Positions 8,220-37,301 of a stretch of DNA of 64,000 bases are shown one piece after another. Both the position numbers and the translations under genes were made by a program. This stretch comes from Rhodocyclales bacterium. GTDB lineage: Bacteria > Pseudomonadota > Gammaproteobacteria > Burkholderiales > Rhodocyclaceae. The stretch spans positions 62,001 through 126,000 of the forward strand of contig JACPEH010000016.1 in NCBI GenBank assembly GCA_016183655.1, given 5' to 3'. The first letter of the stretch is position 1; each line of letters starts with the position of its first letter. The notes beneath the pieces are model-generated. The model saw only the letters and a program-made list of their open reading frames with translations, was not told the DNA's origin and made no database searches.

Positions 8220-10715
8220 TCATCCGCCGGCGCGCAACACCTGCAGCGGCGAGCTGCCGAGCAGGCGCCGCGCGGCCAGCCAGCCAGCCGTCGCCACCAG
8301 CACCGCGCCGCCGAGCACGGCCGCCGGGAACGGCCACAGGCTGGTCGCCACCTCGAACTGGAAGGCTTTTGCCGCCAGCACCTGGCCGACCACGGCGGCG
8401 CCGGCGGCGGCGATCGCGCCGGCCAGGCCGCCGACCGTCGCGAACTCGGCGAGCAGCGCCCGCCGCAGTTGCTCGCGGCGGGCGCCGAGCGAGCGCATCA
8501 CCGCCAGCTCGTAGCGCCGCTCCTCGAAGGCCGAGCCGAGCGCCGCGTAGAGCACGACCAGCCCGGCGGCGAGCGCGAACAGGAAGATGAATTGCACCGC
8601 CTGCGCCACCTGGTCGAGCACCGACTGCAACTGGCGGACGATGGCGGCGACGTCGATCACGGTGACGTTGGGGAACTCACGGACCAGCGCGTTGATCAGC
8701 CCGGCACGCTCCGGCGGCAGGTAGAAGCTGGTGATGAAGCTGGCCGGATAGGGTTCGAGCACGCCCGGCGGCGTCAGCACGAAGAAATTGACGCGCATCG
8801 AATCCCAGTCGAGCTTGCGCAGGTTGACCACCTCGACCGCCACCGGCTCGCCGGCGATGGTGAATTGCAGGCGGTCGCCGACGGCGATGCCGAGCGTCTT
8901 CGCCAGCCCCTCCTCGACCGACGCGCCGCGCGCGTCGCCCGCGGCGAACCAGCGCCCGCGCGTCACCGTGTTGCCCGGCGGCAGCTCGGCCCGCCAGGAC
9001 AGGTTGAACTCGCGCTCGACCAGGCGCTTGGCGCGGTCCTCCTCGTAATCGGCGGCGCTCACCGCCTGTTCGTTCTTCAGCGCCAGCCGCCCGCGCACCA
9101 TAGGCGCCAGCGCAGCGTCGATGCCGGCCGCGCGCAGGTGGCGTTCGACCGCCGCCTGCTGTTCGGGCTGGATGTTGATCAGGAAGCGGTTCGGCGCATC
9201 CGGCGGCATCGCGCGCCGCCAGGCGTCGAGCAGGTCGCCGCGGGTCGCCGTCAGCAGCAGCAGCGCCATCAGGCCGATGGCCAGCGCGACGATCTGCACG
9301 ACGCTGCCGAGCGCCCGCCGTTCCAGATTGGCCAGCCCGTAGCGCCAGCCGAAGCCGGCCGCGGCGTGCGCCCCGCCGCGCAGGCCGGCCGCGAGGCGGA
9401 TCGCCAGCCGCGCGACCAGCGCAAAGACCAGCAGCGCGCCGAGAAAACCGCCGACCACCCAGGCGCCGAGCACCGCTTCGCCGGCCACCCAGAACATCGC
9501 GCCGGCCAATGCCGCCAGCCCGAGCAGGTAGCCGCCGACCAGGGCGCCGGCCGGCGGCCCGAACTCGCGGCGCAGCACGCGGATCGTCGGTACCTGGCGC
9601 AGTTGCAGCAGCGGCGGCACGGCGAAGCCGAACAGCAGCAAGAGGCCGACCGCCATCCCCTGCCCGGCCGGCAGCCACGACGGCGGCGGCAGCGGTGTCG
9701 CCAGCAGGCTGGCGAGCCAGGCGTGCAGCGCGAAATGGCCGGCGTAGCCGAGCAGGCAGCCGGCCAGCGAGGCCACGAGACCGAGCAGCGCGAACTGGCT
9801 GAGATAGAGGCGCAGCAGGAAACCCTGCGTCGCGCCGAGGCAGCGCATCACCGCGCAGGGGTCGAGGTGGCGCTGGCTGTAGCGGCGCGCAGCAAGCGCC
9901 ACGGCGACGGCGGCGAGGACCACGGTGAGCAGCGCGGAGAGGCCGAGGAAACGCTGCGCCCGTTCGAGCGCGGTGCGGATTTCCGGACGACCGGTGCGCG
10001 CATCCTCGATCTGCTGGCCGCGGCCGAGGCGATCTTCCGCCCAGCGCTGGAAGTCGTGCACCGCCTTCGGCTCGCCGGCAAGCAGCAAACGGTAGGCAAC
10101 CCGGCTGCCGACCTGGACCAAGCCGGTCGCCTCCAAGTCGGCGAGGTTCATCAACAGGCGCGGCGCGACGCTGAAGAAATTGACGCCGCGGTCCGGCTCC
10201 AGCGTCAGCACGCCGGCCACGACGAGACGGACACGGCCGAGCGCCAGCGGGTCGCCGACCTTGAGGTCGAGCGATGTCGCCAGCCGTTCGTCCACCCACA
10301 CCGTTCCCGCCGGCGGAATGCCGGCCACCGGCGCATCCACCGCATTGACCGCCGGCGCCAGGCGCAGGCTGCCGCGCAGAGGGTAACCCGGGCTGACCGC
10401 CTTCACTTCGCTCAACTGCGCCCGTTCGCCGTGCAGCACCATGCTCGGGAAAGCCCGCGTCTCGGCCACCGCCAGCCCGCGCCGGGCGGCTTCGTCGGGC
10501 ATCGCCGCCGGCCACGGCTGGTCGGCGGTCAGCAGCAGGTCGGCGCCGAGCAACTGGTGCGCCTCGCGCTCCAGCGCCTGGCGCACGCGGTCGGCGAAGA
10601 AACCGACCGCGGACAGCGCGGCAACGGCGATCACCATCGCCGCCGCCAGCAGGCGCAGCTCGCCGGCCCGCGAATCGCGGCGCAGCAGGCGGCAGGAAAC
10701 GAGGAAGGCGTTCAC
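8220..10715 (-). CDS. ybbP: FtsX-like ABC permease (YbbP family)
   Basis: Large ABC-type permease of 831 residues with a GTG start at 10713-10715. It has an N-terminal TM helix (LRLLAAAMVIAVAALSAVGFF) followed by a periplasmic MacB-like domain, several central helices, a second periplasmic domain, and three C-terminal helices in FtsX style. Length and layout match YbbP, the partner of the YbbA ATPase in other proteobacteria. No ATPase gene lies beside it here, so its partner must be elsewhere or it may function differently. It starts 24 bp after the radA stop, suggesting co-transcription with radA. Confidence 0.88.
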   Translation of the reverse strand: MNAFLVSCRLLRRDSRAGELRLLAAAMVIAVAALSAVGFFADRVRQALEREAHQLLGADLLLTADQPWPAAMPDEAARRGLAVAETRAFPSMVLHGERAQLSEVKAVSPGYPLRGSLRLAPAVNAVDAPVAGIPPAGTVWVDERLATSLDLKVGDPLALGRVRLVVAGVLTLEPDRGVNFFSVAPRLLMNLADLEATGLVQVGSRVAYRLLLAGEPKAVHDFQRWAEDRLGRGQQIEDARTGRPEIRTALERAQRFLGLSALLTVVLAAVAVALAARRYSQRHLDPCAVMRCLGATQGFLLRLYLSQFALLGLVASLAGCLLGYAGHFALHAWLASLLATPLPPPSWLPAGQGMAVGLLLLFGFAVPPLLQLRQVPTIRVLRREFGPPAGALVGGYLLGLAALAGAMFWVAGEAVLGAWVVGGFLGALLVFALVARLAIRLAAGLRGGAHAAAGFGWRYGLANLERRALGSVVQIVALAIGLMALLLLTATRGDLLDAWRRAMPPDAPNRFLINIQPEQQAAVERHLRAAGIDAALAPMVRGRLALKNEQAVSAADYEEDRAKRLVEREFNLSWRAELPPGNTVTRGRWFAAGDARGASVEEGLAKTLGIAVGDRLQFTIAGEPVAVEVVNLRKLDWDSMRVNFFVLTPPGVLEPYPASFITSFYLPPERAGLINALVREFPNVTVIDVAAIVRQLQSVLDQVAQAVQFIFLFALAAGLVVLYAALGSAFEERRYELAVMRSLGARREQLRRALLAEFATVGGLAGAIAAAGAAVVGQVLAAKAFQFEVATSLWPFPAAVLGGAVLVATAGWLAARRLLGSSPLQVLRAGG

Positions 10716-10739
10716 GTTGCGGTCACCCCGGCGCCGGTC

Positions 10740-12101
10740 TCACTCCAGCGCGCGGATCTTCTCCACCGCTTCCTCGACGCGCGATACGGCGACCACCTCC
10801 AGCCCGGCGATCGCCTGCCGCGGCTTGTTCGCCTCCGGGATCAGCGCCCGCGTGAAGCCGAGCTTGGCCGCTTCCTTCAGCCGCTCCTGGCCGCGCGGCG
10901 CCGGCCGGATCTCGCCGGCCAGCCCGACCTCGCCGAAAACGATCAGCTTCTCCGGCAGCGGCCGGTTCTTCAGCGACGAGATGATCGCCATCAGCACCGC
11001 CAGATCGGCCGCCGGTTCGCTGATGCGCACCCCGCCGACAGCATTGACGAAGACGTCCTGGTCGAAGCAGACGACGCCGGCGTGGCGGTGCAGCACGGCG
11101 AGCAGCATCGCCAGCCGCTGCGCCTCCAGCCCGACGGTCAGCCGGCGCGGGTTGCCGTGCGCCTGGTCGACCAGCGCCTGGATCTCGACCAGCAGCGGCC
11201 GCGTCCCCTCCTGCGTCACCAGCACGCAGGAACCGGGCACCGCCTGACCGTGCTGCGAGAGGAACAGCGCCGACGGGTTGCTGACGCCCTTCAGCCCGCG
11301 GTCGGTCATGGCGAAGACGCCGAGTTCGTTGACCGCGCCGAAGCGGTTCTTGAAGGCGCGGATCAGGCGGAAGCTGGAATGCGTGTCGCCCTCGAAGTAG
11401 AGCACGGTGTCGACGATGTGTTCGAGCACGCGCGGCCCGGCCAGCGCGCCCTCCTTGGTGACGTGGCCGACCAGGATGACGGTGATGCCGGCGGTCTTCG
11501 CCAGCCGGGTCAGCTGCGCCGCGCATTCGCGCACCTGCGCCACCGAGCCCGGCGCCGACGAAAGCTGATCCGACCACAGCGTCTGGATCGAGTCGATCAC
11601 CGCGACACGCGGCTTCTCCGCCTGCAGCGTGGCCAGGATCTTCTCCAGGTTAATCTCGGCGAGCAGTTGCAGGCGCTGCGTGTCGAGCGCCAGCCGCCGT
11701 GCGCGCAAGGCCACCTGCTCGCCCGACTCCTCGCCGCTGACGTAGAGCACCGGCTGCGTCGCCGACAGCGTGGACAGCGCCTGCAGCAGCAGCGTGCTCT
11801 TGCCGATGCCGGGGTCGCCGCCGATCAGCACGACGCCGCCGAAAACGAGGCCGCCGCCGAGCGCGCGGTCGAATTCGCCGATGCCGGTGGCGATGCGTTC
11901 GGTCTCGCGCGGCTCGATCTCCGAGAGGTTCTGCAGCCGCGCCGCCGGCGCCAGCGACTGGAAGCGCGCCGCCGGCGAAGCCTTCTCCGCGACGCCCTCG
12001 ATCAGCGTATTCCACGCATTGCAGGCCGGGCACTGGCCCTGCCACTTGGGCAGCGAGGCACCGCACTCGCTGCAGGTATAGACGGTTTTTGACTTGCTCA
12101 T
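10740..12101 (-). CDS. radA: DNA repair protein RadA
   Basis: RecA-related ATPase that promotes branch migration in recombinational repair. The 453-residue protein has an N-terminal four-Cys zinc finger (CSECG...CPAC), Walker A in GGDPGIGKST, the RadA-specific KNRFG motif and a C-terminal Lon-protease-like domain. I use the ATG at 12101 (MSKSKTVYTC) because homologues begin just before the zinc finger; an upstream in-frame start at 12137 would add residues with no similarity. It is divergent from the cyclic-nucleotide-binding gene across about 50 bp, and the permease gene follows after 24 bp. Confidence 0.96.
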   Translation of the reverse strand: MSKSKTVYTCSECGASLPKWQGQCPACNAWNTLIEGVAEKASPAARFQSLAPAARLQNLSEIEPRETERIATGIGEFDRALGGGLVFGGVVLIGGDPGIGKSTLLLQALSTLSATQPVLYVSGEESGEQVALRARRLALDTQRLQLLAEINLEKILATLQAEKPRVAVIDSIQTLWSDQLSSAPGSVAQVRECAAQLTRLAKTAGITVILVGHVTKEGALAGPRVLEHIVDTVLYFEGDTHSSFRLIRAFKNRFGAVNELGVFAMTDRGLKGVSNPSALFLSQHGQAVPGSCVLVTQEGTRPLLVEIQALVDQAHGNPRRLTVGLEAQRLAMLLAVLHRHAGVVCFDQDVFVNAVGGVRISEPAADLAVLMAIISSLKNRPLPEKLIVFGEVGLAGEIRPAPRGQERLKEAAKLGFTRALIPEANKPRQAIAGLEVVAVSRVEEAVEKIRALE

Positions 12102-12151: not shown

Positions 12152-12631
12152 ATGGCCCACTGGATCAAGGAACACTTCTCCTTTCAGGACCTGCAGCGGA
12201 TCATGTTCCGCCTGATCGACCGCGTCCCGGTTTTCCACGGCATGAGCGGCGAGGAGCTGCTGCAGTTGCTGGAGGCCGCCGAGAAATGCACCTTCGGCGG
12301 CGGCGAGACGATCCTGCGCGAAGGCAGCACCGGCGCCTGGCTGTACGTGATCATCGACGGCACGGTCGCCGTGCAGAAATCGGCTGGCGGCCTGGCGGCC
12401 GAACTGGCCGAGCTGCACGCCGGCGATTCCTTCGGCGAAATGTCGCTGGTCGACCATGAACTGCGCTCGGCCTCGGTCGTCGCACAGACGCCCTGCGTGC
12501 TGCTGCGCCTCTCGGAGAAAGCCTGCGACAAGCACCCGATGGGCAGCGCCAAGATCTATCGCAACATCGCCGGCATCCTCTCCCGCCGGCTGCGCGAGAT
12601 GGACGACGCCTATGTACGGGGGCGCAAGTAG
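12152..12631 (+). CDS. Cyclic-nucleotide-binding domain protein
   Basis: Stand-alone CRP-type effector-binding domain of 159 residues with no DNA-binding or enzymatic domain. The phosphate-binding cassette reads AGDSFGEMSLVDHELRSASV (about 90-109) and keeps the FGE and Arg features expected for cyclic nucleotide binding. Residues 1-25 form a helix. It could be a cNMP sensor acting through protein contacts. It ends 11 bp before the convergent end of the radical SAM-GNAT gene. Confidence 0.88.
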   Translation: MAHWIKEHFSFQDLQRIMFRLIDRVPVFHGMSGEELLQLLEAAEKCTFGGGETILREGSTGAWLYVIIDGTVAVQKSAGGLAAELAELHAGDSFGEMSLVDHELRSASVVAQTPCVLLRLSEKACDKHPMGSAKIYRNIAGILSRRLREMDDAYVRGRK

Positions 12632-12642
12632 AACTCCGGCGT

Positions 12643-15090
12643 TCAGCCGGCGGCCGCGACGCGCTTGACCAGGACTTCGCTGGCGTGGGTCTTCGACAGC
12701 GCAGTGTTCTCGAACCGCTCGCCGCTGGGCGAATAACCGCAGGCGCGCCAGAAGCGGCGGCTGGCCTCGTTGCACTCCTCGACGCCGACGGTGAATTCGC
12801 GCACGCCGAAGCGTTCCCGCGCCCATGCCTCCAGCAAGCCAAGCACCGCACGCCCGACGCCGCGGCGCTGATAGCCTTCGGCCAGCATCAACAACCCGAT
12901 GCAGGCGCGACCAGGTTCGGGATAGGCGGAAAGGATGTCCGCCACGCCGATCAATTCCCCGCCGTCGCGCGCATAGATTCCCATGAAGTGCTTGCAGTGC
13001 TCGTACCCGGGCGGCGCCTCGCCGATGTCGCCGATCACGTAGTCCAGCGGCGGAGCGTCAATGCCGCAGAGCAGACGAAAGAACCGGGGATTGGCCGCAT
13101 AGACCGGCATCGCGTCGGCAGCGGCGTCCACTCCCAGCGGACGCAGGCTCCAGTTCGCATCCGACAATAAGGTGTCGGTATCGTCGGTCGGCACCAGGGC
13201 ACCCTCCGCTATGAGTTCGTCGATGACCGCGTTCAAACGCGCCGCCACGTCGGCGTCGAGGGCTTCGCCGGCAAAGGCTTCGATCGCCTCGGCCGGATGG
13301 AGCGGGTGCCGGAACGATTCCAGCAGCTTCCCCATCGCCGGGTTAATGGCCTGGGTGATGCTACCATCGGCGCGCCGCACGGTCATCAGGATGCAATCGC
13401 CCGGCGGCGCGTCGCCGAGACCGAGCCGCGGGTCCGCCACCAGAGCGCGGATATCGGCCGCCAGCGCGACGATGCGCGCCGCCGGACTGAGGCGGTAGCG
13501 GCGGCCGTCGATCCGCCGCGCGGCATGCGCTCGCGGGCGCGGCAGGCAGGACAGCTCGTCCATGACGCGCAGTTGTTCGAGCAAGGCCAGCGCGGCGGCG
13601 CGCGCCGGTTCGTCCAGATGCCGCGCATGTCCGGCAAGGCGGGCGACGGCATCGCAGCGCAGGCGACCGCGCAACGCGCTCATTTCCGGCGCCAGCGACG
13701 GATCGGTGCCGGCATTCCACCAATGACGCCGCCGGCAGAGTTCGGCGAAGGCCGGCTCGTCCGCCAGGCACTCGGCGTGTGCGGCGATGACGGCCGACGG
13801 CGCCGGCCCGCCGACCGGCGGCAAGCGCCGCAGCAACGGCAGATACGGCCCGAGCAGCATGCGGGCGAAGCCGAAGCGGTTGTAGCGCGCCAGGTCGGCG
13901 AGGCTGAATTCCGGATGGCACAGCACGTCGTGCGGCGCCTCTTCGAGGTGGGCGATGCCTTCGCGCCGCGCCCGCTGCGCAAGCCCGGTTCCGGGCAACA
14001 CGCGGGTATGGAACAGGCAGACCTCGGCGCCGCGCGCCATCGCCCAGTCGTGGGCGGCGAAGGTGCGCTCCAGGCGCTCGCCGGGCAGGCCGCCCATGAC
14101 GTGGACGAAAACGTTGAGGCCGAGATCGACGGCGTCTTTCAGGTTGCGCTCGAACGGACCGAGCCGGTTGCGCCGCCCGGCCTTTTGCATCGTCCCCTCG
14201 TCGAGGGACTGCAAGCCGGTTTCGATGTCCAGGCAGTTCGCCTGCCGGCAGGCCAGCGCAATTTCGCGGTCGAACAACTCCATGCGCACTTCCGCCCCGA
14301 GAACATGCCGCCGCCGGTTGTGGCGGCAGGCATGGTCGAGGATCGCGAGGGTCCGCTCCCGGTATTGATTGAACGTGGTGTCGTAGAACTTGATGCTGCG
14401 GCAGCTTCGGGCGAGCACGAAAGCGAGTTCCTCGCGCACCAGGTCGAGCGGAAACTTGCGCACCGTGGCAAAACCGCGGCCCTCGTGGCAGAAATCGCAG
14501 CGATAGGCACAGCCGCGATAGGTTTCCAGATGCACGGCGCCGAGCCGGTCGGGGTCGAGGACGCCGGCGAGGTAGGGCGAAACCGCCTGCGACAGATCCA
14601 GCGGCGGCGGCGGCGAGTTGCGCCGCGGCACACCGTCCACCCGCAGTGCCAATCCTGCCAAATCGTCCAGCGGCTGCCGCCCGAGCAGGCGCCGCAACAG
14701 CTCGGCATAGGCGATCTCGCCCTCGCCGCAGACGATTGCGTCCACCTCCGGATGCCGCGACAGCACGCGCTCCGGCGCCATCGAGGCGTCGATGCCGCCG
14801 AGCACCAACAAGGCTCCCGGGCATAGCTGCCTGAGTGTCGGCGCGAGGCGCAAGGCATGCGCGAGGCTGCCGTGCATGGTGTTGAAGCCGATCAGGTCGG
14901 GGGTGCCGGCAAGTATTTCGGCGAGGGCAGACTCCGGAGCGACGTAGTAGTCGAAACCGAGCAGGCGCGTCTCGACCCGCTCCGCCAGGTCGGGCTGCGC
15001 CTCGGCGTACGCCTGCAGGCAGGCGAGCCCGAGGGGCGGATTGCCGCCCAGGTTGAAACCGACCAGGGCGACGCGCAGGCGCTCAGGCAT
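12643..15090 (-). CDS. B12-binding radical SAM enzyme fused to RRE-like and GNAT domains
   Basis: Predicted modification enzyme of the peptide-modifying cluster, 815 residues. N-terminal cobalamin-binding-like Rossmann domain at about 5-140 (GGIDAS and CGEGEIAYAELLRRLL stretches; no DxHxxG motif seen). Radical SAM core from about 185 with canonical RGCAYRCDFC (Cys 194, 198, 201). A winged-helix PqqD/RRE-like segment lies at about 560-650 (ITQAINPAMGKLLESF onward). A GNAT acetyltransferase domain occupies roughly the last 145 residues, with motif A in EGYQRRGVGRAV. I chose ATG 15090 because it overlaps the preceding gene's end by 8 bp and starts directly at the B12 domain. The GNAT fusion suggests acetylation of the product (inference); substrate and reaction are unknown. 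Confidence 0.85.
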   Translation of the reverse strand: MPERLRVALVGFNLGGNPPLGLACLQAYAEAQPDLAERVETRLLGFDYYVAPESALAEILAGTPDLIGFNTMHGSLAHALRLAPTLRQLCPGALLVLGGIDASMAPERVLSRHPEVDAIVCGEGEIAYAELLRRLLGRQPLDDLAGLALRVDGVPRRNSPPPPLDLSQAVSPYLAGVLDPDRLGAVHLETYRGCAYRCDFCHEGRGFATVRKFPLDLVREELAFVLARSCRSIKFYDTTFNQYRERTLAILDHACRHNRRRHVLGAEVRMELFDREIALACRQANCLDIETGLQSLDEGTMQKAGRRNRLGPFERNLKDAVDLGLNVFVHVMGGLPGERLERTFAAHDWAMARGAEVCLFHTRVLPGTGLAQRARREGIAHLEEAPHDVLCHPEFSLADLARYNRFGFARMLLGPYLPLLRRLPPVGGPAPSAVIAAHAECLADEPAFAELCRRRHWWNAGTDPSLAPEMSALRGRLRCDAVARLAGHARHLDEPARAAALALLEQLRVMDELSCLPRPRAHAARRIDGRRYRLSPAARIVALAADIRALVADPRLGLGDAPPGDCILMTVRRADGSITQAINPAMGKLLESFRHPLHPAEAIEAFAGEALDADVAARLNAVIDELIAEGALVPTDDTDTLLSDANWSLRPLGVDAAADAMPVYAANPRFFRLLCGIDAPPLDYVIGDIGEAPPGYEHCKHFMGIYARDGGELIGVADILSAYPEPGRACIGLLMLAEGYQRRGVGRAVLGLLEAWARERFGVREFTVGVEECNEASRRFWRACGYSPSGERFENTALSKTHASEVLVKRVAAAG

Positions 15091-17386
15091 GGCCTGCCGT
15101 TGCCGACACGCGCGCCAGCATACCGTGCTGCGCCAAGCGACCGAGAAAGGCGGCGAGGCGCTCGGCAGACATCTCCTCGCCGAGCATCCGCCCCGCCTTG
15201 TCGGCGATTTCGGCAACGGACAGGTTCGCCGGCTGGATCAGCAGCCAGAGCAGAGCGCCGCTCAGATTGAGGCGCATCGCACGTTCGCGCAACGGATCGT
15301 AGAGCACCGCGTCGCTCTCGCCGAGGAACATCAGCTCGGCGGCTTCGTTGGCGACCACAGCCTCGCCCTCCGCCCCGCCTGCGTCTGGCACCAACCAGTC
15401 GAGCGCCAGGGACAACATGGCGCGCTCGGCGGCGGCCAGCGTTTCGCCGCGTTCCGCGCGCTGCGCCGTGGCAGCGAGCTGCGGCGGCAGGCGGACGACG
15501 CGACAGCCGAGCGCGTCAACCAGCACGCTGCTGTCCTCGGCGACGACCAGTTGCGCCCATGGCGGCATCCCTGCGCCGCGATGCGCCAACCAGTCACCGG
15601 GAAAAACGCCGACCGCGTGCTTGCGCAAGCCGAGGGCTTGCGGGTCCCGCGCGGCAACGGCGGCGACGAAGGCTTCTTCCTCGCGCGGCGCGGCCGGCGC
15701 CAGGCTGCGGTTGGGGAAGCCGTCGCGACGACGGCGCGCGATCAGCGCATAGACGTCGGCGCCGACGTAACGGTCGAGCAGTTGCGCCGCGTCCCGGGCA
15801 CCAAGGGCGAGTTCCATCTCCACGTCGTAGGCGCAATCGAAAGCCAGATCCTTGTCGTCGGCGGTGGGCAGCAGGCGGACGCCGTAGCTCGCGGGGTCGG
15901 CATGGACCGCCGAACCGTGCTCCAGACCGAAGGTGCCGACACCCTTGGTGCACCAGGAAATGCCGTACTCGCCGCGCGCCGCGGCCAGCACCTCGTCGCT
16001 GAAGGCCAGGGTGCGCAGCGCTTCCTCGGCGGTTTCCCCGGGAAAGCCGATCATGCAGAAGAGGTGGAAGCCGATGCCGTGCCGCAGGCAGCGCTCAAGC
16101 AGCGGGCGGACCTCCTCCTCGCGCACCCCCTTGCGGATCCGGTCGAGGATGCGCTGGTTGTAGGATTCAAGTCCGAACTGCAGCAGGCGCAGCCCGGCCT
16201 TTGCCGCCTCGGCCACCAGCTCCTCGGTGAAACCCGGCACCAGGCGCGTTTCGCCGTACCAATGCACCGCCAGTCGGCGCGCCTCGATCGACCTGGCGAG
16301 CCGGCGGACGACGCCGGCGGGCAGCGATTCGTCCACCAGGGTGAACATGTCGGTGCCGTAGCGCTCGCGCAAATAGGCCATTTCGTCGGCGATCTCGTCG
16401 GCGGGACGGGTACGGAACTCGCCGCTGGTGCTGGCGATGGTGCAGAAGGTGCAACGGTTCCACGGGCAGCTGCGGCCGGTGTAGGTAGGCAACACTAGGC
16501 TGGGCGACAGGTACAGGTCGAGCGGAAGATCGTCGAAATCCGGCGGCGGCGCCTGCAGGATAGACACCGTTCGCGCCGGCGTATCGATCAGGGCGCCGTC
16601 CGCCACGTACTGCAGGTTGGGGACGCCCGCCAGCGCGCCTTTTCCGGAAAGCGCCTCGACCAGTGCGACGATCGACTCCTCGCCCTCGCCGAGCACGGCA
16701 AAATCGATCAGGTCGTGAAAGGGATGCGGCGCCCGCCAGCGCCGGGCGATCCGTGTCAGATAGTTGCCGCCGAGGACGATCCGCGTCGCCGGCGCCAGGC
16801 GCCGGATACCGGCGGCGATGGTCAGCGCCGGCACGAGCTGCTCGCGGTCGGCCACCGACATGCCGACGAGCCCGTAGTCGCGCGCAAGGATGGGGGCGAT
16901 GCACGCCGCGAAGAACTCGCGCACCGGATTGTCTTCCCAGTCGTGCACCGCTGCGAGCACGTTGCGGCTGCTGTCGGCGGGCAGCGTCGCGTGTGCCAGC
17001 TTGTGCAGCGAGAGCGACAAGCCGGCGTGCGCGGCCTCGACGAGACGCAGCGAGGCGCCGACGATCCTCCGGCACCATTCGTAGCGCTGCGGGTCGGAAA
17101 AGCACTCGTGGGAGCGGAAGCCGCACTTCGCCGCATCGATGGCATCGATCAGATGCGGGGCGAGCAGCATCAACTCGCGATGTTCGCCCTCGCCTTCGCG
17201 CTCGCGCAGGCGTTGCAGCATCCGGCGCAGGTAGTCGGCGGAGAGCAGCCGGTCGATGAAGGCGATGTTGCCGTCGAACTGGTCGACCGGATGCCCGGCG
17301 GCCTTCAGCCGCGCGGTCAGGAGCGGCAGCGCCAGATAGGGGGAATGCGGACTCCACCCGGGCGGAAAGAGAAGAAGCGTCTTCAC
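15083..17386 (-). CDS. B12-binding radical SAM enzyme with C-terminal PqqD/RRE-like domain
   Basis: Second B12-type radical SAM protein of the cluster, 767 residues from a GTG at 17384-17386 that overlaps the preceding gene's stop. Layout: N-terminal region 1-110; B12-binding-like domain at about 110-245 (IVLGGNYLTRIARRW, VLGEGEESIV); radical SAM core from 300 with SCPWNRCTFC (Cys 307, 312, 315), a CX4CX2C spacing instead of CX3CX2C; C-terminal PqqD-like domain at about 675-760 (DAVLYDPLRERAMRLNLSG then LSVAEIADKAG). Related B12 radical SAM enzymes of RiPP pathways carry methylation or epimerisation-type chemistry, but the reaction here cannot be read from sequence. Confidence 0.83.
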   Translation of the reverse strand: MKTLLLFPPGWSPHSPYLALPLLTARLKAAGHPVDQFDGNIAFIDRLLSADYLRRMLQRLREREGEGEHRELMLLAPHLIDAIDAAKCGFRSHECFSDPQRYEWCRRIVGASLRLVEAAHAGLSLSLHKLAHATLPADSSRNVLAAVHDWEDNPVREFFAACIAPILARDYGLVGMSVADREQLVPALTIAAGIRRLAPATRIVLGGNYLTRIARRWRAPHPFHDLIDFAVLGEGEESIVALVEALSGKGALAGVPNLQYVADGALIDTPARTVSILQAPPPDFDDLPLDLYLSPSLVLPTYTGRSCPWNRCTFCTIASTSGEFRTRPADEIADEMAYLRERYGTDMFTLVDESLPAGVVRRLARSIEARRLAVHWYGETRLVPGFTEELVAEAAKAGLRLLQFGLESYNQRILDRIRKGVREEEVRPLLERCLRHGIGFHLFCMIGFPGETAEEALRTLAFSDEVLAAARGEYGISWCTKGVGTFGLEHGSAVHADPASYGVRLLPTADDKDLAFDCAYDVEMELALGARDAAQLLDRYVGADVYALIARRRRDGFPNRSLAPAAPREEEAFVAAVAARDPQALGLRKHAVGVFPGDWLAHRGAGMPPWAQLVVAEDSSVLVDALGCRVVRLPPQLAATAQRAERGETLAAAERAMLSLALDWLVPDAGGAEGEAVVANEAAELMFLGESDAVLYDPLRERAMRLNLSGALLWLLIQPANLSVAEIADKAGRMLGEEMSAERLAAFLGRLAQHGMLARVSATAGHA

Positions 17387-18645
17387 GGCCGGTCGCGCAC
17401 GAGGTCGACGAAACCGCCCCGCTGCAGGCGGCGCACGAAGGCTTGCACGGTCTCCCGGCCGCGGCCGTCGACCAGCGAGGCGAAGCGCGGGCCGGCGGCA
17501 ATCTCCGACCAGATGCCGGCCTCGTCGCCGGATAGCGGTTCCGGCGCCACCTGCGGCGAGCGCGGACTGAGCAGCAGCGCGGCGCCGTCGCGCCGTTCGA
17601 GCGCCAGGCCGACCAGCGGAACGACCTTCCAGTTTCCGTCGATGTCGCCGTCGCCCAGGGTTTCCCGGCAGGTCGGCGGCAGCTCGGGACAGGAATCCAG
17701 TCCGTAGCCAAGGCAGCCGCCCTGGCAATGACCGATCCGGTAGTAGCGGCACTGCGCGCACTCGTCGAGCAGCTGGTGAGCAGCCTTGTAGGCGCTCATG
17801 CGGGTGAAGAAATAGCGCTCCATCGCCGGCACGTCGGCGAACCAGGACAGCGGCACGCGCTCCTCCTCGCGCTGCGAAGGGCATGCCTTGACCGTCAACT
17901 CCGGGCTTATCTCCAGGGTCAGGCCGCAATTGCCCCAGTTGATGACGCTCAAGGACTGGCTGGCGACGAAGCCCATGTCCTCGTCGGAGAACATGCAGTA
18001 CGGCAGCGGGCAATCGACGTAGCTGCGCAAGCCAGCTGCGGACAGCTCGCGCAGCATCGCGGCGATGCGCACCCCGGTCGGGCGCAGTTGCTCGACCGGG
18101 ATATGGGAGGCGCCGCGCACGACCGGAAAGGCCAGCGCCCAGCGCACTGCCTGGATGTCGAATTCGCGCGCGTAGTCGAGCAGGAAGCGATGGTCGAAAT
18201 CGGGACGGTGGATGACGAAGCTGAGATCCGTCTGCAGCCCGGCGTCGCGAAAGCGGCCGAGGTTTCGCCGCAGGTGGAGGAGCGACACCGGCTTTTCCTC
18301 GCACGGATCGAGGACGTTGATCGAGACGATCAGCTTCCGCCCGTGCCCGACGATCTCTTCGACCATGCGATCCGAAAATATGCCGTTGGTAAACAACAGC
18401 GCCTGCTTCAGGGCGGGACGTTCGTCGATGATTTCCAGCAGGCGGCCAAACTGCCGGTGCAAGGTCGGCTCGCCGCCGACCAGCGTGACCTTCTCCTCGC
18501 CGGAAGCCTCGCAGAAATCCAGGATGGCGTTGAAGGCGTCCAGGGAAATCTGCGTCCAGCCCCCCGCCCCGGCCGATTTCATGATCGACGACTGGTAGCA
18601 GAACGCGCATGCGCGCGAACATTGATTGGTGATGGCGATATTCAT
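17383..18645 (-). CDS. SPASM-type radical SAM peptide-modification enzyme
   Basis: Radical SAM protein of 420 residues starting right at the catalytic core: CX3CX2C at Cys 9, 13, 16 (NQCSRACAFC), followed by VTLVGGEPTLH, the usual GGEP motif. The C-terminal half has a SPASM-like Cys cluster (CAQC...GHCQGGC...SCP), expected to hold auxiliary Fe-S clusters as in PqqE, AlbA and MftC. The last ~85 residues (from about VGLALERRDGAALLL) resemble a PqqD/RRE domain. ATG 18643-18645 overlaps the PqqD-gene stop as ATGA. The family usually forms cross-links or alters side chains of ribosomal peptides; the natural substrate here is probably the 109-residue protein encoded upstream (inference). Confidence 0.87.
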   Translation of the reverse strand: MNIAITNQCSRACAFCYQSSIMKSAGAGGWTQISLDAFNAILDFCEASGEEKVTLVGGEPTLHRQFGRLLEIIDERPALKQALLFTNGIFSDRMVEEIVGHGRKLIVSINVLDPCEEKPVSLLHLRRNLGRFRDAGLQTDLSFVIHRPDFDHRFLLDYAREFDIQAVRWALAFPVVRGASHIPVEQLRPTGVRIAAMLRELSAAGLRSYVDCPLPYCMFSDEDMGFVASQSLSVINWGNCGLTLEISPELTVKACPSQREEERVPLSWFADVPAMERYFFTRMSAYKAAHQLLDECAQCRYYRIGHCQGGCLGYGLDSCPELPPTCRETLGDGDIDGNWKVVPLVGLALERRDGAALLLSPRSPQVAPEPLSGDEAGIWSEIAAGPRFASLVDGRGRETVQAFVRRLQRGGFVDLVRDRP

Positions 18646-19793
18646 TGCGCTCGAATCTCCCGATCGATGATGACGATTCCCGCGTCCTGCAGGGTTTCCA
18701 TCAGCCTCTCCACCCCGGGGACGAACTCGCCTCCCCAGTTGCGGCCAACCTCTTCGAGCAGGACGGCGGTGCGGCACGGCTCGCGCAGCAACTGCCAGAT
18801 CGCCAGCGCGGCATCGTTGAGGCGGATCGAATCGAGGCGACGGTCTTCCGGGAAGAACAGCACGCCACCGTCGTCCTTGGGCAGCAAGCGCACCCCGCGG
18901 TTGACCCGCGCCAGCGTTCCTGGGCGACGCAGTTCCTCGCTGCGGCAGACCGCCGGCTGCGGCTCCGACGGATTCGGCAGGCCGTGCGCGACGGGGGCTG
19001 CACAACCGCGAACGCCGCGCCGCGGACAGGCGGCGCACGCCGCCAAATAGCCGTCCCCCGCATCATCCATCGCGCGCGCCAGCAGGTAGCCGACGATCCG
19101 CCGCTCGACGCCGTCGCCGCGCGGCCAATGCAGATTCCGGAAAGGTCCGCGCCAGGGGGAGAGGGTGTCGGATGCAAGGTGCCAGGCGACCTCGGTCGAC
19201 GCGCTGCGATAGTCCCCCAGCGGCAGGCACTCCTTGGCCAGGCGGCCGAGGTCGCCGGCAGAAAACGCGCAAACGGGCGGGCAGCCGTCGATGCGCACGG
19301 ACTGCCAGCGGCGCGCCAGGCATTCGACGGTAGCCCCCAGCTCCGCGGCCAGCACCGCCAATCCGGCGTGCCGTTCGGCGGCGGGCAGGCTATCCGCATC
19401 CGGCCACGACAGCGACAGGGCGTCGCACGACCACTCGAAGGGCGCCAGTGCGACGCCCGGCGCCATCTCGACGACCACGGCCGGTGCGAGTTTCCGCACG
19501 CCGCCGGCCCAGGCGGAAAAGGCCGTGATCGCGGACGCGGGGAGATGCAGGACCAGGCCGCGCGGCGGATCGCTCGCCCACGCCATGGGCAGCGCGGATT
19601 GCCAGTCAATGTGTACCCGGGTTCCGGGCGGCAGGGTGCAGCACAGCTCGGCCACCCATGCCGCCAGCGACGCATCGCCGCCCCGCGCGTCGATTCCGGC
19701 AACGCGGTGAGCGTCATCGCCGACGGCCTCGATCCGGCGGCAAAGCGCCGCCGCTCCGAGGCGCGCCGGGCCAACGGGCACCACGACGATCAC
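18642..19793 (-). CDS. PqqD/RRE-domain protein with CX2CX7C motif, possible degenerate radical SAM
   Basis: Protein of 383 residues, GTG start at 19791-19793. Residues about 295-380 match the PqqD-type RiPP recognition fold: RVNRGVRLLPKDDGGVLFF, LDSIRLNDAALAIWQLL, then a winged helix ending VERLMETLQDAGIVII. Upstream is a CAACPRRGVRGC motif (253-264) resembling a fragment of a SPASM cluster. The first 250 residues alternate hydrophobic strands and helices without the N-terminal CX3CX2C, so this may be a degenerate radical SAM barrel that kept only the auxiliary and recognition parts (inference). It overlaps the next enzyme by 4 bp and follows the candidate substrate gene by 46 bp, a good position for a leader-binding chaperone. 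Confidence 0.75.
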   Translation of the reverse strand: MIVVVPVGPARLGAAALCRRIEAVGDDAHRVAGIDARGGDASLAAWVAELCCTLPPGTRVHIDWQSALPMAWASDPPRGLVLHLPASAITAFSAWAGGVRKLAPAVVVEMAPGVALAPFEWSCDALSLSWPDADSLPAAERHAGLAVLAAELGATVECLARRWQSVRIDGCPPVCAFSAGDLGRLAKECLPLGDYRSASTEVAWHLASDTLSPWRGPFRNLHWPRGDGVERRIVGYLLARAMDDAGDGYLAACAACPRRGVRGCAAPVAHGLPNPSEPQPAVCRSEELRRPGTLARVNRGVRLLPKDDGGVLFFPEDRRLDSIRLNDAALAIWQLLREPCRTAVLLEEVGRNWGGEFVPGVERLMETLQDAGIVIIDREIRAQ

Positions 19794-19811
19794 GATGGCG
19801 CCGCCTACGAC

Positions 19812-19823
19812 CCGGCGCGCCGG
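19812..19823. promoter_or_regulatory. Palindrome between candidate precursor and enzyme genes
   Basis: CCGGCGCGCCGG is a perfect 12-base palindrome in the 46-bp gap between the candidate precursor stop and the PqqD-domain gene start. As RNA the paired region could slow or partly stop transcription, so that more precursor than enzyme is made, an arrangement common in peptide clusters. There is no T-run after it on the minus strand, so it is not a full intrinsic terminator. Confidence 0.35.
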
Positions 19824-19839
19824 TCCGGCATCGGCACGA

Positions 19840-20169
19840 TCAGCCCTTGTACTTCTTACACAGGGCGTCCAGGCTCCCGGCGATGGTTTCGGCGAGCGGC
19901 GCGCGCATGTCGATTTCGCTCGCCGCGGTGTATTTCTTGGCCAGCGCCTCCAGTTTGCCGGCCAGCAGTTCCGCCTCCGGTGCGCCGAAGGTCTTGGCGT
20001 TCTTGACGCTGGCGAGCACCTTGGCGATTTCCTCGTTGACCGAGGCGGCGGTGATCGGCCGCAGCCCGGCTTCGGCGGCCGCCTTGTACTTCACCGCAAG
20101 ATTGTCGAGGGTGCCGGCGATCGCCTGCGCTTCGGGCATGGACAAGGGACGATTGCTGCTATCTGTCAT
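19840..20169 (-). CDS. Candidate ribosomal peptide substrate built of four 26-27 residue repeats
   Basis: Small protein of 109 residues and no recognised family. ATG 20167-20169 is preceded by AAGGAGG at ideal spacing, the strongest ribosome binding site of the cluster; a longer frame from 20247 has no such site. Proline residues at 12, 38, 64 and 91 mark four units of about 26 residues; units 1, 3 and 4 share AG-x-L-(D/E)-x-L-(A/C)-x-K-Y-(K/T), unit 2 is diverged, unit 4 is cut short. The single Cys (104) lies in the last unit, LCKKYKG. The protein looks helical, charged and soluble, with no signal peptide or GG cleavage site. Position and neighbours suggest it is the substrate of the radical SAM enzymes; it could also be a structural partner. 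Confidence 0.7.
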   Translation of the reverse strand: MTDSSNRPLSMPEAQAIAGTLDNLAVKYKAAAEAGLRPITAASVNEEIAKVLASVKNAKTFGAPEAELLAGKLEALAKKYTAASEIDMRAPLAETIAGSLDALCKKYKG

Positions 20170-20287
20170 GATTTCCTCCTTGGATGGGTCGGATGACCGG
20201 AGTGGAGGCTGCGTCACAACCTCCCGGGGGCCAGCGGCGCGGTACATGACGCTCTTCGAACCAATTGTCCTTACTGCCGGCAGGGAA

Positions 20288-20316
20288 AATCTAGCAGCAC
20301 TTCTCTATGACTACAA
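20288..20316 (-). promoter_or_regulatory. Possible promoter of the radical SAM peptide cluster
   Basis: In the A+T-rich gap after alr, the minus strand reads TTGTAG (20316-20311), a 17-base spacer, then TAGATT (20293-20288), a fair sigma-70 match. Transcription from here would give a 5' leader of about 115 bases before the candidate precursor. A second, weaker TTGTCA lies at 20332-20327. The A+T-rich stretch at 20286-20345 stands out in this G+C-rich region. Confidence 0.35.
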
Positions 20317-20346
20317 CATTTTTATATGACAAATTTATTTATGGGC

Positions 20347-21429
20347 CTATGCCACCGTCACCGGCACCCGCTTGGCCAATGCGCAGAACAGCTCGTAGCT
20401 GATGGTGCCGGCGGCGGCCGCCACCTCGTCGGCCGACAGCCCCTCGCCCCATAGCGTCACCGGCGTGCCGACGCCGGCCTCGCGCAGGTCGGTCAGGTCG
20501 ACCATCAGCATGTCCATCGAGACACGGCCGAGGGTGCGCGTGCGCCAGCCGCCGACCAGTATCGGCGTGCCGGTCGGCGCGTGGCGCGGGTAGCCGTCGG
20601 CGTAGCCGCAGGCGACGACGCCGACGCGGGTCTCGCGCTCGGCGGCGAACAGGCCGCCGTAGCCGACGCGCTCGCCGGCGGCGATCTGCTGCACGGCGAT
20701 GACCTCGCTCGTCAGCGTCATCGCCGGGCGCAGCCCGAGCGACTCGGCGCTCTCATCGGCGAACGGGCTGCTGCCGTAGAGCATGATCCCCGGGCGCACC
20801 CAGTCGCGACCGGTCTGCGGGTAGCGCAGGATCGCCGCCGAATTGGCCAGCGACACCGGCCCCCGCCACTCGCCGACCATCGCCCGGAACTGCGCGAGCT
20901 GCCAGTCGATGCCCCGCCCCGCCAACCTGTCGCCGTCGGCCTCGGCGAAGTGGCTCATCAGCGTCACCTCGCTCACCGCCTGGTTGCGCGCCAGTTCGTC
21001 GCGCAAGGCGCCGAGCTGCTCCGGGCGGAAGCCGAGCCGGTTCATGCCGGTGTTGAACTTGACGTAGACCGGCACACGCAGCGGCAGGCCGACCTGGCGC
21101 AAGAGCTGCAGCTGATCAAGGCGATGCACGACCAGGCTCAGCCGGTGCTCGGCGACCAGCTCCAGATCCTCGGCAGCGAAGAAGCCTTCGAGCAGCAGGA
21201 TCGGCTGGCGGATGCCGGCCTCGCGCAGCGCTACGGCCTCGTCGAGGTCGAGCAGTGCGAAGCCGTCGGCGGTTTCGGCGAGCGCATCGGCGGCGTTGAG
21301 CAGGCCGTGGCCGTAGGCATTGGCCTTGACCACCGCCCAGGCGCGGGAGCCGGGGACATGGGACTTGGCCAGCAGGTAGTTGTGCAGCAGGGCCTCGCGG
21401 TCGACGCGGGCACGGATCGGACGAGGCAT
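20347..21429 (-). CDS. alr: Alanine racemase
   Basis: PLP-dependent interconversion of L- and D-alanine for peptidoglycan, in the cytoplasm. The 360-residue length is normal. The PLP lysine is K35 in VVKANAYGHG; the second catalytic base Tyr lies in RVGYGGLF in the C-terminal half. Substrate-site FNTGMNRLGF is also present. Its ATG (21427-21429) overlaps the LysR-family stop by one base (TGATG), so the two are translationally coupled. The radical SAM cluster begins about 180 bp downstream on the same strand. Confidence 0.96.
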   Translation of the reverse strand: MPRPIRARVDREALLHNYLLAKSHVPGSRAWAVVKANAYGHGLLNAADALAETADGFALLDLDEAVALREAGIRQPILLLEGFFAAEDLELVAEHRLSLVVHRLDQLQLLRQVGLPLRVPVYVKFNTGMNRLGFRPEQLGALRDELARNQAVSEVTLMSHFAEADGDRLAGRGIDWQLAQFRAMVGEWRGPVSLANSAAILRYPQTGRDWVRPGIMLYGSSPFADESAESLGLRPAMTLTSEVIAVQQIAAGERVGYGGLFAAERETRVGVVACGYADGYPRHAPTGTPILVGGWRTRTLGRVSMDMLMVDLTDLREAGVGTPVTLWGEGLSADEVAAAAGTISYELFCALAKRVPVTVA

Positions 21430-33841: not shown

Positions 33842-34141
33842 GTGGCTTCGGCTTACCCAGTTGCAGTGTTCATCGTATACGCCCTGATGGGGCTTATTGT
33901 GCTGCCGGCGGCATGGTGGCTAATGGCTTATTGGCAAAAGCGAAGGAAGCTCAAGAAGCTTTCGGTGGCATCCCTCTATTGGTCGGCTACTCCCATGCTT
34001 TCATTTGTCGCCCTGTATCTTGGGGCAGAGGACATATTGATCCCGCCGATAGTTGCCGGCATCGTCTTCTTTCTCACCCCGGTGATTAATACGGTTGCGC
34101 TGATCGTGGTTGCAATACTGACGGTGACGCAATCGAATTAA
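33842..34141 (+). CDS. Small membrane protein in A+T-richer island
   Basis: Protein of 99 residues with a GTG start and three hydrophobic segments (VAVFIVYALMGLIVLPAAWW; ATPMLSFVALYLG; IPPIVAGIVFFLTPVINTV), with a basic loop after the first. Function unknown. Its last 4 bp overlap the convergent end of the TPR-membrane gene. Base use is clearly less G+C-rich than the flanking core genes, as in the next four genes. Confidence 0.6.
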   Translation: MASAYPVAVFIVYALMGLIVLPAAWWLMAYWQKRRKLKKLSVASLYWSATPMLSFVALYLGAEDILIPPIVAGIVFFLTPVINTVALIVVAILTVTQSN

Positions 34142-35073
34142 TAACCGGGCCGCAATTGCACCTGTTGCAGTTCGCGCGCAAGCATCTGGGTAAATTTACG
34201 AGGCGCGATCCATGTGTAGATGACGAAACCCAACCACGCAACGTCGAGAAGTCTCGACGCTTGGCCCTGGTTGGCGTCATGAAGTACCAGCGAGACGACT
34301 TGATATGCGAGAAACACACCGACAAGCAACAACGTCGCTCGCAGAGGACCTCCCGAACCCACTAGTGCTTGCCAGCGCCACCACAGGCCGAGTGACCAGC
34401 TCTGCCGCGCCTTAATACTGCATAGCAATCCCAGCGCACCCGGGTCGCTCGGGTCCTGTCGCAGCGCCCATATGGCATGCTCTCGAGCACCTTCAAGGTC
34501 ACCTCGGCGCAACAGAATTCTGCCCATAAGCACTAGGGCCTCTTGGTGTTCAGGCATGACTCCGAGCGCGGCATGTGCATCCTGCCAGGCGTGGTCGACT
34601 TGCCCTTGGGTCAGAGCGAAGTAACCGCAGGCAGTCAGTACGGCCGGATTATTGGGCTCCGCCTCGCGTGCTTTCTTTAGAGAACGCGCCTGCTCCTCAA
34701 CGCGATGGTCGAGTGACGCGATGAACGCTTGGGTGCAGAGTGCGTCCACGTCTTGTGGATCGAATGCCAAGCATTGCTCAACGTGAGATTTTGCCTCCAG
34801 TGGGCGTCGGTGAGCGATCAGTGCCCAAGCCATCGCGTGGTGCGCAAGCGGGCTCTCGGGTGCCAGCAATAGACCGATCTCAGCTTCGCGTTGCGCCGCG
34901 TGGATGCGCTTGGCACCGACAAGTGCGAGCGCCAGAATGCTATGCGCGTCGGCGTTTTCAGGATCTTCACTAAGAATTCGCCGTAGTACCTCAATCGCCG
35001 CATAATGCTGGCCCTGCCGGTTGAGGGCGATCGCACGGTCTAAGTCTCGGCTGCCATGAGAAGGTGAAGTCAT
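34138..35073 (-). CDS. TPR protein with two C-terminal membrane helices
   Basis: Protein of 311 residues. About 1-215 are tetratricopeptide repeats (SRDLDRAIALNRQGQHYAAI, ADAHSILALALVGAKRIHAA, PAVLTACGYFALTQGQVDHA), a protein-binding scaffold on the cytosolic side. Helices follow at about 240-262 (RATLLLVGVFLAYQVVSLVL) and 275-292. It overlaps the upstream four-helix protein by ATGA. With that protein and the AAA+ ATPase it forms a three-gene operon whose function I do not recognise. Confidence 0.75.
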   Translation of the reverse strand: MTSPSHGSRDLDRAIALNRQGQHYAAIEVLRRILSEDPENADAHSILALALVGAKRIHAAQREAEIGLLLAPESPLAHHAMAWALIAHRRPLEAKSHVEQCLAFDPQDVDALCTQAFIASLDHRVEEQARSLKKAREAEPNNPAVLTACGYFALTQGQVDHAWQDAHAALGVMPEHQEALVLMGRILLRRGDLEGAREHAIWALRQDPSDPGALGLLCSIKARQSWSLGLWWRWQALVGSGGPLRATLLLVGVFLAYQVVSLVLHDANQGQASRLLDVAWLGFVIYTWIAPRKFTQMLARELQQVQLRPGY

Positions 35074-35549
35074 GCGAATAAGACTTGGAGCAGTGAGGAA
35101 CCAGCCAGCGCGCTAGCGACGGCAGGACGAAGCAGGAACACCGCAAACAACAATGGAATTACTCCGTTCGCCTTGCTGCCACCATAGTGCTCGTGGAGTT
35201 CCAGCGCTCGCTGTTGCAGGAAACCAGCCATGTAGGCAAAACCGAGCTTACTGACCAGCGCCAGTAGAACCAAGTACTTTGCTGCATGCGCGCTGATCAT
35301 TCCGGCATCCTTTCCGATACCGACGAGAACGAGCACCAGCAATGCACCAAAGACACCGGCCAAACACGTCGACAATTCGCGTACCCGTGTCGGCGAACCG
35401 AGTGCGAAGCCGTTAAACGCCAACCAAGCTAGGCCAGGGATACCACCGACCACCATACACGCCAGTACAGGCCAGAACGGATCGACGACAAAGCGCGATA
35501 GTGTGCTGGGCATTGGCTCGTCGGCAATTTGGTAACGCGCGCGGCTCAT
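35070..35549 (-). CDS. Four-helix membrane protein of the AAA+ operon
   Basis: Protein of 159 residues with about four TM segments (PFWPVLACMVVGGIPGLAWL; ELSTCLAGVFGALLVLVLVG; AKYLVLLALVSKLGFAYMAG; GVIPLLFAVFLLRPAVASAL) and a short cytosolic N-terminus. No family recognised. Start and stop overlap the neighbouring genes by 4 bp on both sides, so the three proteins are probably made in fixed ratio and act together. Confidence 0.7.
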   Translation of the reverse strand: MSRARYQIADEPMPSTLSRFVVDPFWPVLACMVVGGIPGLAWLAFNGFALGSPTRVRELSTCLAGVFGALLVLVLVGIGKDAGMISAHAAKYLVLLALVSKLGFAYMAGFLQQRALELHEHYGGSKANGVIPLLFAVFLLRPAVASALAGSSLLQVLFA

Positions 35550-36889: not shown

Positions 36890-37034
36890 CGAATAAGCTG
36901 CAGGGCAAAGACTTACAAATGGTAATGGAGTTCGTCGGATACACATCGCGTGCACAATGGCCTACTGATCTTCAGTCAAGCGACCTCGTTTCGAGGGAGC
37001 GACTCCATGCATTACGAAATTCTTTTCCCGTCAG

Positions 37035-37301
37035 CTATGGCGACTTGGATTCGAAAGCCATCACTGTCCTCCTGGAGAATGACCACAGGAGAGTGACGCC
37101 CCATCCTAGCAATCCCAACAGAGGGAATGGCTCTATTTGCGGTATGGAACCAGCCCCAGGGATGCCGTATGCAACGACCAATGAAATTGCATTCAGAACA
37201 AAGATCGCCTTTTCCTGCTGATGGCTGCGCATGACCCCAATATAGGTCGGCAAGAAGGATGCGAAGAGCACAATTAGATTGAAAATGAATTCGCCGGTCA
37301 T
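37035..37301 (-). CDS. Superinfection immunity-family membrane protein
   Basis: Protein of 88 residues. LIVLFASFLPTYIGVMRSH, then a helix AIFVLNAISLVVAYGIPG, and FPLLGLLGWGVTLLWSF match the three-part pattern of the Imm_superinfect family (T4 Imm-like small membrane proteins that block DNA injection by related phages). It lies upstream of the AAA+ operon on the same strand with about 145 bp between, in the A+T-richer island. Family membership is a pattern call; activity is not demonstrated. Confidence 0.7.
   Translation of the reverse strand: MTGEFIFNLIVLFASFLPTYIGVMRSHQQEKAIFVLNAISLVVAYGIPGAGSIPQIEPFPLLGLLGWGVTLLWSFSRRTVMAFESKSP

Follow-up and report, generated by a model that had tools for sequence, protein, structure and literature searches.

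We analysed a 64,000-nucleotide stretch of the genome of a Rhodocyclales bacterium (GenBank assembly GCA_016183655.1, contig JACPEH010000016.1, positions 62,001 to 126,000 of the forward strand; hereafter the window), in which an earlier note, made from the sequence alone, had described a five-gene radical S-adenosylmethionine (SAM) peptide-modification cluster resembling those of ribosomally synthesized and post-translationally modified peptides (RiPPs). The open reading frame (ORF) coordinates and translations bear out that five genes, here designated A to E, stand in a row on the minus strand and fill positions 12643-20169 (Table 1). Three junctions are tight, with overlaps of 4 bp (B/C), 4 bp (C/D), and 8 bp (D/E), as the note had proposed for every junction; A and B are separated by a gap of 46 bp or more, the GTG at 19793 being the first ATG, GTG, or TTG in the frame of B after an in-frame stop. 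The small gene A does have the best ribosome-binding site: its Shine-Dalgarno sequence is the only near-perfect one of the five, C being preceded by GGGAG and B, D, and E by no comparable motif in the 25 bases before the start. All five reading frames are open and share a GC content at third codon positions (GC3) of 0.84-0.86, slightly below that of the nearby genes alr (0.93) and radA (0.92). Promoter and terminator scans gave nothing better than shuffled sequences.

Table 1. Features of the cassette and its surroundings, in positions of the window.
Feature	Position	Strand	Description or basis
Gene A	20169-19840	-	109 aa, ATG start; candidate substrate
Shine-Dalgarno AAGGAGG before A	20175-20181	-	Sequence
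Gene B	19793-18642	-	383 aa, GTG start; N-terminal ~290 aa without assigned identity, PqqD-like C-terminus
PqqD-like domain of B (residues 307-374)	18672-18875	-	hmmsearch with local PqqD-like profile; hhalign 88%; Pfam PqqD E 0.02
Gene C	18645-17383	-	420 aa; SPASM-type radical SAM enzyme
Radical SAM core of C (residues 5-127), CSRACAFC	18265-18633	-	Pfam PF04055 E 7.7e-13
Auxiliary-cluster (SPASM-like) Cys region of C (residues 212-311)	17713-18012	-	Cys conservation, 31-row alignment
Possible PqqD-like domain, end of C (residues about 353-416)	17398-17589	-	hhalign 54%, E 1.3e-4
Gene D	17386-15083	-	767 aa, GTG start; B12-type radical SAM enzyme, related to TIGR03975
B12-binding-like stretch of D (residues 163-242)	16661-16900	-	Pfam PF02310 E 6e-5, below cut-off
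Radical SAM core of D (residues 303-462), CPWNRCTFC	16001-16480	-	Pfam, over cut-off
PqqD domain, end of D (residues 693-757)	15116-15310	-	Pfam borderline; hhalign 54%
Gene E	15090-12643	-	815 aa; B12 radical SAM-GNAT fusion
B12-binding domain of E (residues 18-131)	14698-15039	-	Pfam E 1.6e-14, over cut-off
Radical SAM core of E (residues 189-341)	14068-14526	-	Pfam E 8.6e-13, over cut-off
GNAT domain of E (residues 697-786)	12733-13002	-	Pfam E 2.2e-15, over cut-off
7.7-kb insertion	12632-20346	.	Uninterrupted sites in congeners; genes A-E
Cyclic-nucleotide-binding gene	12152-12631	+	Flanks insertion
alr	20347-21429	-	Flanks insertion

The cassette occupies a site that is uninterrupted in close relatives, as expected of a module that is mobile or was gained horizontally. 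All 7 genomes of the genus, that of the source included, contain alr, and the cassette is absent beside it in the 6 congeners (1-2 kb examined on that side). In two of these, alr, the cyclic-nucleotide-binding gene, and radA are consecutive, the aligned ends of the first two lying 33 and 36 bp apart; a third (L198) keeps the same genes with an extra one between the first two; alr adjoins radA in two more, and other genes occupy the site in the last (L200). Another gene, TMEM165-like by eye, stands next to alr in L198 and L200, and because these two congeners hold a gene there, the alr side of the site may be a hot spot of gene gain. Since the interval is uninterrupted in congeners and A-E are its only plausible genes here, the cassette looks complete as inherited. 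Neither a protease nor an exporter, both usual for RiPP clusters without being required, lies within the insertion, the boundaries of which uphold what the earlier note had said of their absence from the cluster.

The gene set is rare in the genomes searched, which are samples of larger groups. Among 398 further genomes of the order, none matched E at E ≤ 1e-30, and C went unmatched at E ≤ 1e-12 in 368 further genomes of the class and 397 of the phylum. A search with the single sequence of C revealed no close copies in genome contigs, nor did close copies of D or E emerge from viral contigs or of A or B from plasmids; the 9 plasmid records matching C all covered less than 80% of it, as did, for E, all matches listed (the best 15 of 109 records). 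At E ≤ 0.001, 49 of 60 additional genomes contained a match to D, and because the best matches were about 30% identical, mostly over the radical SAM part, they appear to reflect the general enzyme family. A 31-row profile of the C family detected a single gene among 273 other genomes of the class at E ≤ 1e-25, a different radical SAM gene (L205, 44-2514), which stands beside a protein ending in Ala-Cys-His-Ser repeats, (SACH)n. The A-E combination was not found in any of the genomes searched, and the titles and abstract starts of the open-licence literature yielded no description of it. The lack of close copies among 399 genomes for E and 369 and 398 for C (own genome included in each) could also indicate a decaying or chance assembly of genes with no common pathway; given five open frames of even GC3, three tight overlaps, and the co-occurrence of the same enzyme kinds elsewhere (see below), we regard this as highly improbable.

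C combines a CxxxCxxC radical SAM motif with C-terminal auxiliary-cluster cysteines, the hallmark of SPASM radical SAM peptide maturases. In the 31-row alignment, C217, C240, C255, C296, and C299 are invariant, and C212, C307, and C311 are present in at least 90% of the rows. The Pfam SPASM model finds no match in C, but the C-family profile can be aligned nearly end to end with two solved structures, that of an anaerobic sulfatase-maturating enzyme (profile positions 9-308 of 321) and 5v1q, which we take to be SuiB (8-314), and this match, together with the conserved cysteines, sustains the earlier assignment of C as a SPASM-type enzyme. The alignments with SkfB and with 5wgg, presumably CteB, are restricted to the core. 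MoaA-like radical SAM cores are the nearest NCBIfam relatives of C, and none of the five proteins passes any NCBIfam cut-off shown. Identification of C as the anti-phage protein viperin was rejected, the match covering only the radical SAM part (residues 2-114) rather than the full length.

The designation of D and E as B12-type radical SAM enzymes, the latter fused to an acetyltransferase-like GNAT domain, stands in full for E, all three domains of which exceed their Pfam cut-offs, and for D in its radical SAM core, the B12-binding-like stretch remaining below the cut-off. E also matches the PADLOC defence candidate PDC-M51A (95 bits, residues 85-382). No other B12 radical SAM-GNAT fusion turned up in the search of the order, among the best plasmid matches, in the viral contigs, or in two E-like proteins. 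On plasmid pTM3 of Tistrella mobilis (L036, 6818-9178), an E-like B12 radical SAM protein is encoded by an ORF of 786 codons with no GNAT match, in an unannotated record. The source genome contains six cobalamin riboswitches, and cobalamin is therefore probably in use.

PqqD-like domains were sought with a local profile built from 26 PqqD-like proteins taken from the C-family loci described below. The ends of B, C, and D matched it in hhalign with 88%, 54%, and 54%, respectively, versus at most 1.4% for four control stretches, and on these grounds B, D, and probably C appear to carry a PqqD-like end; that of D was one of nine seeds of the search leading to the profile but lies outside the profile itself. 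In Pfam, the PqqD match of B is sub-threshold, and the earlier description of B as a PqqD-domain protein thus owes its support to the local profile. D scores 26.2 bits in a genome-wide search (cut-off 23.4) and falls just under the cut-off in hmmscan (22.5 bits, E 1.5e-4). The cassette accordingly has the RiPP recognition element (RRE) expected of a RiPP cluster; in RiPP pathways, RRE domains of the PqqD type serve to bind the leader peptide, according to the available part of PMC7470986, where an HHpred value of 80% to PqqD structures serves as the criterion. A PqqD domain suspected by eye in E was not confirmed by hhalign (2.4%), and PqqD-like tails suspected on the C homologues of three loci, L025, L088, and L102, scored 19%, 0.5%, and 0.3%. 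One clearer PqqD is encoded elsewhere in the genome (57.6 bits), beside ORFs that resemble pqqB and pqqC by eye. The structure of B predicted from its single sequence was useless (pLDDT 33).

To place C among its relatives, a three-row alignment of C and two plasmid homologues was used as the query, which retrieved at least 80 public genome loci and at least 80 viral loci; 87 loci contained a near-full-length relative, and the 80 left after near-copies had been dropped form the basis of the counts that follow. Distant relatives, about 19-31% identical to C, are widespread in bacteria, archaea, and phages. In 20 of the 80 loci, 7 of which had given seeds to the PqqD-like profile, a PqqD-like gene lies directly upstream and ends at the start of the C homologue, overlapping it by 8 nt in 16 cases; when ten PqqD-like small proteins were compared with the Pfam PqqD model, seven matched at E ≤ 0.05 and three exceeded the cut-off. 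A B12 radical SAM gene occurs within 4 kb of the C homologue in 11 loci, and ORFs of this kind number 14 in 571 kb near the homologues, 6 of them members of the seed of the search profile, versus 1 in 552 kb at greater distance. Same-strand ORFs with Cys/Trp/Tyr-rich tails are present within 3.5 kb in 15 loci, amounting to 15 in 507.6 kb versus 3 in 430.1 kb beyond 5 kb. The near/far rate ratios are 2.8, 3.6, 3.6, and 1.7 at thresholds of 0.20, 0.22, 0.25, and 0.28, and two of the three far matches at 0.25 (L042 and L107) are Cys-tail proteins of the same kind. A tail motif, PCG-P-P-G-C-C[N/D], recurs in 15 ORFs from 14 of the 80 loci, always on the strand of the C homologue. Eight of 10 repeat proteins encoded near C-family genes remained unmatched in NCBIfam at E ≤ 0.01; one of the other two matched a TAT signal domain only, and the second only two weak, unrelated families.

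In L025, which falls into the weakly supported tree neighbourhood of C, genes for YcaO and TfuA stand beside the C homologue, a pair that the accessible part of PMC8120280 associates with thioamidated RiPPs. In L049, from an Acidobacteria metagenome-assembled genome, a radical SAM-like ORF (by eye) and a small protein rich in CxC and Tyr, a candidate precursor, precede a D-like B12 enzyme that has a PqqD protein on either side; a C homologue, an E-like B12 enzyme with no GNAT domain, and another radical SAM enzyme follow in that order. The two PqqD proteins are matched by Pfam (E 9e-14 and 5e-12), and the D-like enzyme also resembles E (E-value 6e-12 versus 6e-21 for D). With enzymes like all three of C, D, and E alongside PqqD proteins, L049 offers the best indication that these three may work as a single peptide-modifying set. 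As far as the enzymes are concerned, the RiPP-like reading of the earlier note is thus strengthened, both by this locus and by the PqqD-like and B12 radical SAM genes next to C relatives.

Further repeat proteins were observed beside C-family genes. In three related phage-like viral contigs (L117, L118, and L119, about 9001-10974), the radical SAM gene is followed by one for a Trp-repeat protein (RWDNNWGANW...), possibly a phage-encoded modified repeat protein, and in four other viral contigs (L123, L127, L128, and L131) Tyr-rich repeat proteins are encoded immediately upstream. Proteins ending in PCGSPIPPGAVCVCNC...HYWYPN-type tails, some of them WD40-like, occur in ten loci, mostly from Chloroflexota and most with a PqqD-like gene before the C-family gene; two of these proteins were compared with NCBIfam and matched no model for the tail. 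In Afifella marina, a named isolate (L103, 9818-10252), CYVKDT repeats lie at the end of an ORF that, read from stop to stop, overlaps the end of the C-family gene. Upstream ORFs in L037 (8408-8722), L048 (5069-5338), L066 (8468-8965), and L078 (8430-8951) contain repeats of the Gly-Trp-Asn-Asn-Tyr, Tyr-Asp-Ser, and Asn-Tyr types.

Gene A is built from repeats, as the earlier note had recognised: its best self-alignment score was 70 versus 25.6 ± 5.0 in shuffled sequences, none of 300 of which reached 70. Three related units start near residues 12, 64, and 91 (offsets of 52 and 27), each with a Lys-Tyr pair (residues 27-28, 79-80, and 106-107). In a single-sequence AlphaFold model, A is predicted to form four helices (pLDDT 72, pTM 0.62). 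A has only weak, sub-threshold matches in Pfam, no NCBIfam family at E ≤ 1, and no likeness to the local PqqD-like profile (hhalign 0.1%). Among the matches listed in a fold search with the predicted model, none of 300 from the PDB and none of 268 from a viral library reached E ≤ 0.001; a resemblance to the small metal-binding protein SMBP (PDB, E 0.37) was set aside as generic four-helix likeness. Judged as a RiPP precursor, A is repeat-built, adjoins the enzymes, and has a strong ribosome-binding site, yet it comes with neither a homologue nor a visible leader or core.

We consider it probable that the five genes were acquired together and form a self-contained RiPP-type modification system with A as its substrate. 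The strong ribosome-binding site of A would ensure abundant synthesis, and the PqqD-like ends of B, D, and probably C would bind A and deliver it to the enzymes. C could then introduce an oxidative bond (cross-link) or a side-chain change, and D and E, judging by their distant kinship to named B12 methyltransferases, would most likely add methyl groups at unactivated carbons, whereas the GNAT end of E would acylate the product, perhaps on the Lys of the repeated Lys-Tyr motif. As the insertion encodes neither a protease nor an exporter, the modified protein is likely to remain intracellular, or else to be processed by housekeeping proteases.

Several observations weigh against this proposal. 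On the side of the enzymes, the nearest NCBIfam relatives of D (TIGR03975, a RiPP maturation C-methyltransferase; 138.4 bits) and E (KedN5 methyltransferase; 117.9 bits) fall far short of curated cut-offs of 281.85 and 700, respectively. The PqqD-like end of C is below the hmmsearch inclusion threshold, the middle of E scores little above the controls for such a domain, and an E-like enzyme of Priestia (L035) lies among unrelated metabolic genes. In the tree, C forms a long branch (1.69) with L055, L025, and L110 (support 98/74), then L048 (90/77), none of these placements being firm, and as no relative is more than 31% identical to C, the function of C can be read only weakly from kinship. 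The enrichment of Cys/Trp/Tyr-rich tails shrinks to 7 near versus 3 far at the stricter threshold. As for A, the predicted four-helix fold is unlike that of usual precursors, and no border between leader and core is visible. In 61 genomes, its own included, A alone was found at E ≤ 0.001 (next best E 0.004), and homologues were absent from the plasmids and from the C-family loci (best E 2.2). The earlier note had held that its reading would suffer if the enzymes regularly occurred without the small gene; the outcome on this point is mixed, in that relatives of C do so with respect to A, while another repeat-rich candidate is present in 15 of the 80 loci, at one threshold, and the Cys-tail motif in 14.

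The folded appearance of A and its lack of a leader/core border are the chief obstacle to the proposal and leave room for a role as a helical carrier or adaptor, in which A would hold the enzymes, or hold a small molecule or cofactor-like compound that they build. The KedN5 methyltransferase family, to which the nearest named relative of E belongs, acts on a small molecule, and the lack of a protease or transporter in the cassette would fit as well; we nevertheless judge such a role unlikely, given that B, D, and probably C have PqqD-like domains and that repeat proteins accompany some relatives of C, both of which point to peptide or protein substrates. Alternatively, the enzymes might modify a host protein encoded elsewhere, with A as a regulator or accessory subunit, a scheme to which the dissimilarity between A and the Cys/Tyr/Trp-rich candidates beside other C-family genes lends some weight. 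That the insertion holds A-E alone and that A has the strongest ribosome-binding site, as for a co-inherited substrate, make it quite improbable.

With A as substrate, a more specific version of the RiPP-type system can be put forward, tentatively and with more doubt than conviction: the cassette may modify a folded, repeat-built protein, each Lys-Tyr helical repeat being cross-linked, methylated, and acylated in turn to give an intracellular modified protein, and it may be an outlier within a large group, still without a name, of bacterial, archaeal, and phage SPASM radical SAM systems that act on Cys-, Tyr-, or Trp-repeat proteins. If the RiPP-type reading is correct, a single small helical protein is the target of three radical SAM enzymes, two of them B12-type, and of a fused acyltransferase, and radical RiPP chemistry would extend from short peptides to folded proteins. 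The cassette is compact and self-contained, and could easily be moved into a laboratory host. The survey of the C family, for its part, suggests a broader group of radical SAM systems with repeat proteins as neighbours. Elsewhere in the window, positions 34000-38000 show a dip in GC content (0.56-0.58) and contain ORFs resembling TPR, AAA+ ATPase, and membrane proteins by eye, possibly of foreign origin.

Modified ribosomal peptides are a known general class, and this combination of genes was not found elsewhere. The L049-type cluster, of which the open-licence literature searched gave no description, shares C-, D-, and E-like enzymes together with PqqD proteins, and differs in its free-standing PqqD proteins, Cys/Tyr-rich small protein, extra radical SAM enzymes, and E-like enzyme with no GNAT. 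The TIGR03975 C-methyltransferase systems provide the nearest named match of D, which scores far below their cut-off, whereas A matches no NCBIfam family at E ≤ 1. In pyrroloquinoline quinone (PQQ) biosynthesis, which relies on PqqA, PqqD, and PqqE, a PqqD fold and a SPASM radical SAM enzyme act together on a ribosomal product, as is proposed for the cassette; the genome has a separate pqq-like locus, and the cassette has instead B12 enzymes, a GNAT domain, and a 109-aa repeat protein. The tvg cluster (TvgA/TvgB) for poly-cyclopropylglycine, as presented in the available part of PMC9062424, also pairs a radical SAM enzyme with a repeat-built precursor, the counterpart of the candidate A, but has a TVGG core, an Fe/alpha-ketoglutarate oxidase, and a peptidase/transporter in place of B12 enzymes and GNAT. 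The biphenomycin-like pbs cluster encodes a RiPP pathway that has both an RRE protein and a B12 radical SAM enzyme, and it includes a multinuclear nonheme iron-dependent oxidase (MNIO), an arginase, and a hydroxylase, the accessible portion of PMC12257519 mentioning neither a SPASM enzyme nor GNAT. Finally, the nostolysamides are acylated lanthipeptides with acyl groups on Lys side chains, according to the part of PMC13060382 at hand, and so offer a parallel for the Lys acylation of a ribosomal peptide proposed here; they belong to a lanthipeptide system, whereas the GNAT domain of the cassette is fused to a B12 radical SAM enzyme.

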